Notes under the pieces: generated by a model
What the model saw: only the letters and a program-made list of their open reading frames with translations
The model's database searches: none
Told to the model about the DNA's origin: nothing
Assembly (NCBI GenBank): GCA_934503275.1
Contig: CAKSVD010000005.1
Coordinates: forward strand, 37,863 to 101,862
Source of the DNA: an uncultured Faecalibacterium sp.
GTDB lineage: Bacteria > Bacillota > Clostridia > Oscillospirales > Ruminococcaceae
Reading direction: 5' to 3'
DNA: 64,000 bases
Program-made: the position numbers and the translations under genes
In this document: one piece after another, positions 11,801 to 54,345 of the stretch
How positions within the stretch are numbered: the stretch's first letter is position 1
Layout of the letters: every line of letters begins with the position of its first letter

Positions 11801-12682
11801 ATGCAGGCAACCATTCACAACGAATTTCTGACCCTGACTGTGGACACCCACGGTGCAGAGGCCGTCAGCCTGAAGAACGCCGCAGGCGAAGAACTGCTCT
11901 GGCAGGCCGACCCCGCCATCTGGAAGCGCCACGCGCCCATTCTGTTCCCGTGGACAGGCAAGCTGGTTGGCGGCACCTTTGCAGCCAAGGGAAAAACCTG
12001 GAAGGGCGGCCAGCACGGCTTTGCCCGGGATCTGGAGCACACCCTGCTGCGGGCAGAAGGGGATACCATCCAGCTGGAGTTGCGCGCAGACGATGCCATC
12101 AAGGCAGAGCGCTTCCCTTATGACTTTGTGCTTACCAGCACCTTCCGTCTGGAGGGCAAGACCGTACATCATACCCTGCAGGTGACGAACCCCGGCACGG
12201 AGCAGCTGCGCTTTGGCATCGGCTTCCACCCGGCGTTCAATGTGCCGTTCGATGCCAAGCACACCACCACCGACTACGAGTTCCGCTTTGACCAGCCGGA
12301 AAGCCCGGTCATCCTCGATGCCCGCCCTAACGGCCTGCTGAGCGGCAAGAGTTATTACCAGTGGAAGAACCAGCAGGCCATCCCGCTGACCGATGACCTG
12401 TTTGCCAACGACAGCTTCTGCATGGCAGGCCTGCGCACAGGTACCATCGGCATCTGCGAGAAGGACACCGGCCGCAATATCACCTGCAAGGTGGAGGGCT
12501 ACCCCTATTCGCTCATCTGGTCGGCTCCCGCAAAGCCGGTGCGCTTTGTGTGCATTGAGCCGTGGCACAGCCTGCCCGCCGCTGAGACCGACCCGCAGGA
12601 CTGGGAGCAGCGCGCCGCAGCCGCCTGCCTTGCCCCCGGCGAAAGCTGGCAGACCACCCTTAGCACCACCTTTGACCGGTAA
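11801..12682 (+). CDS. Aldose 1-epimerase family protein (LacX-like)
   Basis: A 293-aa beta-sandwich galactose mutarotase-fold enzyme that interconverts anomers of hexoses or acts on phosphorylated sugars. The family pattern is visible: LTLTVDTHGAEAVSLKN at the start, a LWQADPAIWKRHAPILFPW segment (split here for length), GQHGFARD with the conserved His, and IGFHPAFN with the second His. The ribosome-binding site is AAAGGAG at 10 nt. A TATACT (11747-11752) provides a likely -10. It stands alone between the kinase and the toxin-antitoxin-like locus. Substrate is not predicted by context. Confidence 0.88.
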   Translation: MQATIHNEFLTLTVDTHGAEAVSLKNAAGEELLWQADPAIWKRHAPILFPWTGKLVGGTFAAKGKTWKGGQHGFARDLEHTLLRAEGDTIQLELRADDAIKAERFPYDFVLTSTFRLEGKTVHHTLQVTNPGTEQLRFGIGFHPAFNVPFDAKHTTTDYEFRFDQPESPVILDARPNGLLSGKSYYQWKNQQAIPLTDDLFANDSFCMAGLRTGTIGICEKDTGRNITCKVEGYPYSLIWSAPAKPVRFVCIEPWHSLPAAETDPQDWEQRAAAACLAPGESWQTTLSTTFDR

Positions 12683-12714
12683 GAAAAAAGCACGCAGAAA
12701 CGAAACGGCGTGCT
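12682..12714 (-). terminator. Terminator for the 27-codon peptide transcript
   Basis: Read on the minus strand: AGCACGC, a 12-nt loop, GCGTGCT and six Ts. It lies about 100 nt beyond the peptide stop codon and just after the aldose epimerase stop on the other strand. The plus side has no T-run. Confidence 0.75.
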
Positions 12715-12715
12715 C

Positions 12716-12744
12716 TTGACAGAAACCTCAAAAGTGGGTATACT
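12716..12744 (+). promoter_or_regulatory. Consensus promoter for the antisense RNA
   Basis: TTGACA (12716-12721), a 17-bp spacer and TATACT (12739-12744). No protein-coding gene follows in this direction; transcription would start near 12751 and meet a strong terminator at 12843. Confidence 0.85.
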
Positions 12745-12750
12745 GTAAAT

Positions 12751-12843
12751 AGAAAAGGCACTGCGACAAGCGGTCAGCCCTTTTGATGTAAGTTCTTAAA
12801 GACTAAGAACCGTCACCGGCCAGGGTGGCGGTTCTCGCTTTTT
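12751..12843 (+). ncRNA. Putative antisense RNA (antitoxin-like), about 93 nt
   Basis: Bounded by a consensus promoter and an intrinsic terminator. It would fold into a 5' hairpin (AAAAGGC...CCCTTTT arms, 12753-12784), a small inverted repeat (GTTCTTA/TAAGAAC, 12792-12810) and the terminator stem. It is fully complementary to the 3' part of the convergent peptide mRNA, including its last ten codons and stop. This is the geometry of 3'-overlapping type I antitoxin RNAs such as RatA and SR4. No Rfam family is recognised by eye. Confidence 0.65.
12806..12843 (+). terminator. Terminator of the antisense RNA
   Basis: AGAACCGTCACC (12806-12817) pairs with GGTGGCGGTTCT (12824-12835) with one G-U pair, then CGCTTTTT. 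The stem also encodes the last codons of the peptide on the opposite strand. Confidence 0.9.
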
Positions 12844-12896
12844 ACCTTGATGGTAAATACCAATCCGAAGATATGGAACGTCAAAGTAATTGGCAT
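12813..12896 (-). CDS. 27-aa hydrophobic/basic peptide, type I toxin candidate
   Basis: A 27-codon ORF (starts MPITLTFHIF, ends ENRHPGR) with a nearly perfect Shine-Dalgarno AAAGGAGGTGA, 8 nt before the ATG. Residues 3-16 are hydrophobic and the tail is basic and polar, as in many type I toxins. It has its own promoter (12975-13003), a 5'-terminal hairpin and its own terminator (12682-12714), giving a predicted mRNA of about 290 nt for an 84-nt ORF. The 3' UTR overlaps the antisense RNA completely. Toxicity is inference from architecture; I do not recognise a named family. An alternative is a leaderless regulatory peptide. Confidence 0.65.
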   Translation of the reverse strand: MPITLTFHIFGLVFTIKVKSENRHPGR

Positions 12897-12944
12897 AAGC
12901 TTCACCTCCTTTCGGAAGTGGGGCCGAACCGCCTGCCGTTATGT

Positions 12945-12970
12945 GCAGTGCCTTGCTGCCGAAGCAGCAA
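12945..12970 (-). other. 5'-terminal hairpin and fold-back arm of the peptide mRNA
   Basis: At the predicted 5' end of the minus transcript, TTGCTGC-TTCG-GCAGCAA forms a perfect tetraloop hairpin (12953-12970). It is followed at once by AAGGCACTGC (12945-12954 on the minus strand). The exact complement, GCAGTGCCTT, is in the 3' UTR (12755-12764). A 5'-3' fold-back of this kind keeps several type I toxin mRNAs untranslated until processing. Confidence 0.6.
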
Positions 12971-12974
12971 TTCT

Positions 12975-13003
12975 ATAATAGCATATAATTCGACAAATGA
13001 CAA
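12975..13003 (-). promoter_or_regulatory. Promoter of the peptide mRNA
   Basis: On the minus strand, TTGTCA (12998-13003), a 17-bp spacer ending TGC, and TATTAT (12975-12980): a good extended -10 promoter. It begins 3 bp after the proS terminator. Confidence 0.8.
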
Positions 13004-54116: not shown

Positions 54117-54159
54117 GATTCCCCAAAAATATTGAAAGAAGGAATGTGTACCACAAGCT

Positions 54160-54345
54160 GACGCAAAGCGCCGGGCCACACGGGTGACAGCCGTGAGGGT
54201 GACGAGGAGAGGAATCATCGAAAGATTCGGCGGATGTTTCTCCGGCTGAGGGCTATACCAGCCGCAGAACAGGGCAAAAACCGGCAGCAATACCGGAACA
54301 GAACCCTGCAAAGAAAGCCATACAAGAACATAGACTTTGATAGAG
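54160..54345 (+). ncRNA. glmS ribozyme-riboswitch
   Basis: The glmS ribozyme core is recognisable: AGCGCC at 54167-54172 (cleavage expected between A54167 and G54168), GGGTGACGAGG (54197-54207), ATCGAAAGATTCGGCGGATG (54215-54234) and CCGGCTGAGGG near 54243. Glucosamine-6-phosphate acts as the cofactor for self-cleavage, which destabilises the glmS mRNA. About 60 nt separate it from the glmS start codon. Confidence 0.93.

Follow-up and report, generated by a model that had tools for sequence, protein, structure and literature searches.

In the type I toxin-antitoxin pairs txpA/RatA and bsrG/SR4, an antisense RNA overlaps the 3' end of a short toxin mRNA, the Shine-Dalgarno (SD) sequence, which is very strong in txpA, is hidden in a few G-C pairs, and the loci reside in prophages (PMC3531473, PMC6562991). 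The same accounts describe pairing with RatA as creating a substrate of RNase III (PMC3531473, PMC6562991), a helix of the txpA mRNA, SL4, that is cut at nucleotides 96-98 and 218-220 and cannot form when RatA is bound (PMC3531473), and the toxins of the txpA/bsrG type as transmembrane helices (PMC6562991). In par(pAD1), two direct repeats in the DNA give the RNAs a second complementary region and the terminator is bidirectional (PMC7472228). In aapA, a 5'-3' long-distance interaction closes the toxin mRNA, and this folding is conserved at various loci (PMC6733600).

The candidate type I locus analysed here comes from an uncultured Faecalibacterium sp. (contig CAKSVD010000005.1) and lies in a stretch of 64,000 nucleotides, the whole of which is referred to as the window. 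The preliminary description had likened its layout to txpA/RatA and bsrG/SR4, and the comparison holds for the antisense RNA at the mRNA 3' end, the SD stem and the residence in prophages, the likeness being one of described layout. On the same descriptions, txpA also has a long helix that is undone by RatA, whereas the txpA and bsrG toxins are transmembrane helices and the window peptide is not predicted as such. With Fst/RNAII of par(pAD1), as described (PMC7472228), the locus shares a convergent small mRNA and antisense RNA, an SD stem-loop and a sequestered mRNA 5' end. However, where Fst/Ldr par loci have direct repeats (DRa/DRb), the repeats here are inverted in the DNA, so that the 5' ends of both RNAs are alike and the mRNA pairs with itself; and where the par(pAD1) terminator is bidirectional, the shared hairpin here is stronger on the antisense strand. 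The 5'-3' closed toxin mRNA is a feature in common with aapA/IsoA and hok/Sok, as these are portrayed in the source for aapA (PMC6733600). Nevertheless, the long-distance interaction of aapA is described as hiding the SD, which here is hidden locally regardless of the 3' arm, and the antisense RNA of the present locus covers the 3' half of the mRNA, unlike those of aapA/IsoA and hok/Sok as described.

In the largely open-access literature, to the extent that its text was available, no description was found of peptide classes exchanged on one self-closing chassis or of a beta-hairpin cargo, and none of six peptide strings occurs in that literature; Faecalibacterium and names beginning with Ruminococc- are absent from the available part of a review of Clostridia. 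Type I toxin-antitoxin systems are a known kind, for which Fozo and colleagues reportedly made a genome-wide search in 2010; the predicted beta-hairpin cargo and the self-closing chassis are a new form of it.

Layout of the locus

Two putative convergent transcription units lie between two housekeeping genes, an aldose 1-epimerase gene (PF01263) and proS, the flank on the proS side being a prolyl-tRNA synthetase (PF09180, PF03129, PF00587). All the elements that the preliminary description had listed for the minus unit (promoter, UUCG hairpin, SD, 27-codon ORF and terminator) and for the plus unit (promoter, structured RNA and terminator) were located in the sequence and are given in Table 1, with transcript ends placed from the sequence. 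The minus terminator, which has a loop of 12 nt, was missed by a hairpin scan with a limit of 8.

Table 1. Features of the candidate toxin-antitoxin locus, in window coordinates
Feature	Position	Strand	Basis or remark
Candidate toxin mRNA promoter, TTGTCA-N17-TATTAT	12975..13003	-	consensus score 10/12
5'-terminal UUCG hairpin of the mRNA	12954..12969	-	sequence and folding
Fold-back 5' arm, GGCACUGC...CGGCAGGCGGUUCGGCCC	12921..12952	-	pairs with 12757-12780 of the same mRNA
SD-sequestering hairpin, CACUUCC-GAAA-GGAGGUG	12903..12920	-	folding
27-codon ORF MPITLTFHIFGLVFTIKVKSENRHPGR, candidate toxin, predicted beta-hairpin	12813..12896	-	
Fold-back 3' arm, in the mRNA 3' UTR	12757..12780	-	antisense RNA 5' part lies on the opposite strand
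Candidate toxin mRNA intrinsic terminator	12684..12713	-	read by eye
Antisense RNA promoter, TTGACA-N17-TATACT	12716..12744	+	consensus score 11/12
Antisense RNA, candidate antitoxin, about 92 nt	12751..12842	+	start placed from the -10 box, end from the U-run
Antisense terminator stem	12806..12835	+	reverse strand codes ENRHPGR and has a C-A mismatch

Between positions 12400 and 13300 two promoters were found, against 0.3 (sd 0.6) in dinucleotide shuffles. The mRNA stretch 12967-12757 folds at -88.6 kcal/mol with its 5' and 3' arms paired (z -6.4 against dinucleotide shuffles), and the antisense RNA, which extends over the mRNA 3' UTR and the final codons of the ORF, also folds better than its shuffles (z -3.0). 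Since this layout recurs in 54 loci and the RNAs fold beyond shuffled sequences, the locus is more than a chance arrangement.

The 5'-terminal hairpin is found in several Faecalibacterium copies, and others are without it, the -10 box standing directly before GGCRCUG. The SD hairpin has variants in L009/L053 and L011. The locus has no Rfam match above the gathering score, and the 12 sub-gathering matches that appear at a relaxed threshold are to unrelated families and fall for the most part on the proS terminator. Elsewhere in the window, a glmS ribozyme (RF00234, 72.5 bits) occupies 54156-54319 of the + strand.

Peptides, their distribution and the shared chassis

The locus is one of a family widespread among gut Clostridia. 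When 61 related genomes were searched in six frames, the peptide turned up at 13 places in 11 of them (16 were listed, the remaining three being weak and unrelated). With a peptide profile, matches appeared in nine genomes among the 396 of the family and in 14 among the 394 of the order; two of the weakest, L074 and L086, resemble other genes. A search with the first 23 bases of the antisense RNA retrieved 60 genome stretches, from Faecalibacterium, Gemmiger, Oscillibacter, Anaerotruncus, Dysosmobacter, Yanshouia and others, and from Clostridia and Bacillota metagenome-assembled genomes. An 18-base core of it was matched in 17 viral contigs, though six (L153/L164, L156/L160 and L158/L166) are without the locus. 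An SD-led peptide is present in 76 loci, after one false match (ORF L146-1203) was dropped; merged so as to be less than 85% alike, these give 54 non-redundant loci from Clostridia and phage contigs. The preliminary description had suggested searching relatives for the peptide, and in these 54 loci peptide, SD and antisense terminator recur together. The copies are dispersed, as the flanks differ between many of them.

In the viral contig L157 the locus is flanked by a tail-sheath gene on one side and, on the other, by a gene that weakly matches tape-measure proteins (phrog_12798, E 3e-8) but has its best match to a family of unknown function; another contig, L163, carries an integrase and a further copy. 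Scanning viral contigs with a pattern of the 5' arm returned 27 stretches, 21 of them new, of which three are real loci (L173 and L185, which are one sequence, and L175) and the other 18 are chance-like. A BLAST search of plasmids with the window stretch returned a single record, and so did a search of phages with the L157 stretch. Copies are also seen side by side, two to five chassis per row (L193, L095, L106, L110, L132, L220 and L231), and the rows of L132 and L193 combine beta-type and helical cargo. In the plasmid pMM35_01 of Vescimonas fastidiosa (NZ_AP023416.1, L245), two adjoining chassis copies lie between jag and a TatD gene; they are without a feature in the PLSDB gene table, which PLSDB itself describes as incomplete, and there are six places in the record.

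The peptide is constrained: over codons 2-17, upstream of the antisense overlap, pN/pS is 0.33 in 31 loci (pN 0.21, pS 0.65), a rough ratio given that pS is close to saturation. Variants include MPITLTFHILQWTVTIKVTSRNRHSAK and MRITLHIGAFTVTIIVKSRNRHPGR. AlphaFold2, run with 35 sequences, returns a two-stranded hairpin with strands at residues 6-12 and 15-21 of 30 (mean pLDDT 80.8, rising to 93 over residues 11-20, pTM 0.34), and the peptide is accordingly predicted to be a beta-hairpin and not a membrane helix. Its best 19-residue Kyte-Doolittle mean is 1.3, and the usual threshold for a transmembrane segment is about 1.6. By prediction, then, it is without the hydrophobic alpha-helical transmembrane segment of the membrane class, and of the words "hydrophobic/basic" in the preliminary description the first was too strong. 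The basic tail, KSxNRHPGR, is encoded by the antisense of the terminator, and the terminator on the opposite strand may be the reason why the alignment shows no variation at N, R and H. Some copies end ahead of it (MPITLTFHLFGLTFTIRVKK), so that the tail is not essential.

The peptide had also been said to be no recognizable named toxin, and we likewise found no family match above a cut-off. The window peptide's sole listing in Pfam is MpPF26 (E 0.02, 15.2 bits against a cut-off of 37.2), and it has no match to Hol_Tox (PF16935) at E values up to 10. For the beta-type peptides tested, NCBIfam gave no match, and PHROG gave a single weak one (phrog_4193, E 0.003), from one variant.

The antisense gene also occurs opposite peptides of other kinds. 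A covariance model of this gene, R1, built from 45 sequences, matches at E 0.001 in 93 genomes from a sample of 295 of the order, and in 71 from a sample of 291 of the class, though the weaker matches may be generic promoter-terminator pairs. Among the best 80 of 93 R1 matches located in 61 loci, several of which belong to the training set of the model, 69 face an SD-led ORF that ends at the terminator, compared with 188 of 4000 random places; five of the 69 ORFs are implausible frames (L224, L225, L229, L233 and L238). Peptides resembling membrane helices lie opposite 49 of the same best 80 matches and 40 of 4000 random places. At L229 an alternative frame reads as a short membrane-like peptide. 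One such cargo is recognizable: the L213 peptide exceeds the Hol_Tox cut-off (32 against 23.3 bits, E 1.1e-7). In 31 genomes of the genus there are seven Hol_Tox matches in four genomes, five of them over the cut-off, and all seven sit opposite an R1 match. The B. subtilis control genome, too, is matched by Hol_Tox, the family to which TxpA belongs. One RNA chassis thus faces unrelated membrane peptides, Hol_Tox among them. The peptides of L198 (MKRLTLTIQFDKFTVTIVIKKR) and L200 (MKITLVIEFLEYVLRIAFRKK) look intermediate between the beta type and the membrane-helix type, and may show how the cargo changed.

Loss of one half of the locus was scored from the antisense side. Of 63 matches, three at contig edges and one duplicate were removed, leaving 59 loci with enough flank, of which 49 keep the peptide and 10 have a damaged toxin half (L100, L104, L105, L107, L116, L137, L141, L143, L144 and L145). 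These are hand-corrected counts, from 50 with and nine without an ORF in the raw scoring: L141 and L144 were moved to lost, their ORF being the end of another gene, and L113 to intact, its SD lying outside the pattern. In L131 and L148 the scored ORF differs from the peptide, yet the peptide is present. Because L104/L143 and L141/L144 share contexts, perhaps eight damage events are represented; in L137 the ORF is kept and the SD region is interrupted. Two Faecalibacterium genomes keep the antisense gene at the galM-proS site itself (L020/L022, equal to L104/L143) with 98-100% identity; there, about 200 bp of other DNA with a long near-perfect hairpin replaces the toxin half (L020 and L022, in G023 and G027). 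Conversely, L068 has lost the antisense half and a lengthened ORF persists. The preliminary description had named relatives with a broken peptide frame and persisting RNAs as evidence against its reading. Such relatives do occur, but as one-sided loss of the toxin-mRNA half, and loss that falls mostly on this side is what a toxin-antitoxin locus would be predicted to undergo.

The peptide might instead be a non-toxic small protein, for example a membrane or signalling peptide, that is under antisense control incidentally, and it is indeed not membrane-helical by prediction and resembles no toxin profile. We nevertheless regard this as unlikely, given that the chassis also bears Hol_Tox and other membrane-like peptides, that the peptide half is lost while the antisense gene stays, and that copies are found in phage contigs and tandem arrays.

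Fold-back of the mRNA and the antisense RNA

The 5' end of the window mRNA pairs with its own 3' UTR over 24 bp. In most copies the mRNA starts with GGCRCUGC or a variant, followed by CGGCAGGCGGUUNGCC, complementary to the 3' UTR; the 5' arm is rearranged in a few (L075, L083/L136 and L085). Across the 54 non-redundant loci the duplex of a locus's own arms has a mean of -56.1 kcal/mol, compared with -49.1 (sd 0.62) when arms are permuted, and none of 10,000 permutations was as good. Own pairing is stronger than the mean of the same 5' arm with foreign 3' arms in 49 of the 54 loci, and than the mean of foreign 5' arms with the same 3' arm in 45. As many loci had been found via the 3' arm, the comparison was repeated on the 21 loci from the peptide search, the window included, with a similar outcome (-54.0 against -43.8, sd 1.23; 0/10,000; own better in 20 of 21). 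All the permutations in this section treat the loci as unrelated by descent and hence overstate the strength of the result.

The outer end of the helix shows the variation directly. In 17 of the 21 loci (L067 was missed by the pattern, and L075, L083 and L085 were excluded for their rearranged arms), 135 of 136 cells of the outermost eight pairs are paired (129 Watson-Crick and six G-U), the remaining one being A-C. Seven of the eight pairs vary, as in GGCRCUGC/GCAGYGCC, GAGUGCUG/CAGCACUC, GAGCAUUG/CAAUGCUC and GAGUCUGC/GCAGGCUC, and none of 10,000 permutations was as good, likewise among the 10 distinct arm pairs, the arms having been located by patterns written after some of them had been seen. 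Pairs were counted from end-anchored arms because a MAFFT alignment misaligned several rows. Compensatory changes thus appear to keep the 5'-3' fold-back of the mRNA.

It recurs with other cargo. In the helical-type loci (49 units merged to 41, of which 40 non-redundant ones were used and L029, which has no duplex, was omitted), the own-arm duplex has -43.3 kcal/mol against -29.3 (sd 0.86) permuted (0/10,000), the own arm doing better than the mean of the others at 36 of the 40 loci. Of the two strands, that of the mRNA gives the stronger duplex in 51 of the 54 beta-type loci (weaker in three) and in 34 of the helical-type loci (weaker in six), a preference beyond what an inverted repeat in DNA requires.

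This last observation bears on the possibility that the locus is a MITE-like mobile element, with the arms as the terminal inverted repeats recognized by a transposase and the RNAs as incidental. The arms are inverted repeats in the DNA, and the copies are dispersed and sometimes in tandem, as such an element would have it. Nevertheless, the stronger pairing in both types of loci means that G-U pairs are tolerated on the mRNA strand, the 5' arm has an extra bulge, both promoters lie outside the arms and yet keep their position, the ORF, SD hairpin and terminator are conserved, and unrelated ORFs occupy the same place. We therefore hold a mobile element of this kind to be very unlikely.

A lock on the SD, as in aapA, was considered as a function of the fold-back and is not supported. 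The SD is predicted to be unpaired with a probability of 0.04 in the complete mRNA and of 0.03 once the 3' arm is removed (48 of the 54 loci scored), the SD remaining paired, and hidden, in either case because of the local hairpin. That the 5' arm has a role in ribosome standby is a guess.

The overlap makes the antisense RNA complementary to the mRNA, and over the 24 nt that face the 3' arm the complementarity is exact. The antisense 5' part consequently resembles the mRNA 5' arm, both being complements of the 3' arm. In the window the antisense 5' part pairs with the 3' arm at -54.5 kcal/mol, against -42.1 for the mRNA's own arm, and with this stronger energy the antisense RNA should outcompete the latter. 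The terminator hairpin is stronger on the antisense strand in all 54 loci (-18.3 against -12.3), in 46 of them owing to a U-G pair where the mRNA has a C-A mismatch, and looks built to stop the antisense RNA while the mRNA passes.

An antisense promoter scoring at least 10/12 was found at 29 of the 30 loci scored (28 of 29 if L026, a locus retrieved by DNA similarity, is set aside), compared with nine of 600 shuffles; at L085 none was found within the stretch scored. The scoring left out the unrelated L012-L014 and seven loci in which the peptide pattern failed: L069 has an in-frame stop, L073 is without its 5' half, L089 and L090 are locus-like, L074 and L086 resemble other genes, and L068 is the locus described above.

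A candidate type I toxin-antitoxin system and what it would mean

The distribution of damaged loci leaves one further reading, a pair of regulatory RNAs of which the antisense RNA would be the important one, with targets in other genes, and the ORF a relic or a translation sensor; antisense genes without an intact toxin half (L104/L056, L143/L052, L145/L060, L100, L105, L107, L116, L141 and L144) fit it, but the pN/pS of 0.33, the ORF kept in 49 of 59 antisense-first loci and the distinct peptide classes at one place make it exceedingly unlikely.

The locus probably works as a type I toxin-antitoxin system. This had been the reading of the preliminary description, and it is supported, short of proof, by the antisense promoter at nearly every locus scored, by the chassis shared with Hol_Tox peptides, by the mostly one-sided loss of the toxin half and by the copies in phage contigs. 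The anatomy of the locus, its conservation, the covariation of the fold-back, the SD hairpin and the strand-specific terminator are established at the level of sequence. Counted against it are a peptide not predicted to be a transmembrane helix, an SD predicted to stay paired with or without the 3' arm, so that the fold-back is not by itself the lock on translation, and, at L068, the loss of the antisense half with the ORF kept. The 5'-3' fold-back, the size of the family, the exchangeable cargo and the probably non-helical peptide were beyond the view of the preliminary description.

As a type I system, the locus would operate as follows. The minus transcript would be a toxin mRNA under double restraint, by the local SD hairpin and by the clamping of its 5' end to the 3' UTR, and the plus transcript an antisense RNA whose terminator lies within the last part of the ORF. 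With its first 24 nt, which resemble the mRNA 5' arm, the antisense RNA would displace that arm and pair with the 3' half of the mRNA, and the duplex would be passed to RNase III and decay. Were the antisense RNA lost, for example along with a prophage or plasmid, the stable mRNA would eventually be translated into a short cationic beta-hairpin peptide that would harm the cell. For this course we infer transcription, decay by RNase III, toxicity and an event that opens the SD hairpin.

Whether the Clostridia-wide chassis, with its self-closing mRNA and an antisense RNA that copies the mRNA 5' end, is a safety catch onto which unrelated toxins are swapped, and whether it carries in Oscillospirales the first small beta-hairpin peptides among type I toxins, we put together at about an even chance. 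If so, roughly one in three of the genomes sampled from the order (the R1 matches, of which the weaker are perhaps generic) would carry silent type I loci that, for the beta-type peptide, go unnamed in the family libraries searched, and R1 would be a handle for finding them. With orphan antisense genes in view, one may ask whether antitoxin RNAs are retained because they guard against copies that enter the genome. The locus would offer a non-helical peptide toxin and a self-closing mRNA, both testable, and the chassis would explain how one control device is shared among unrelated toxins.
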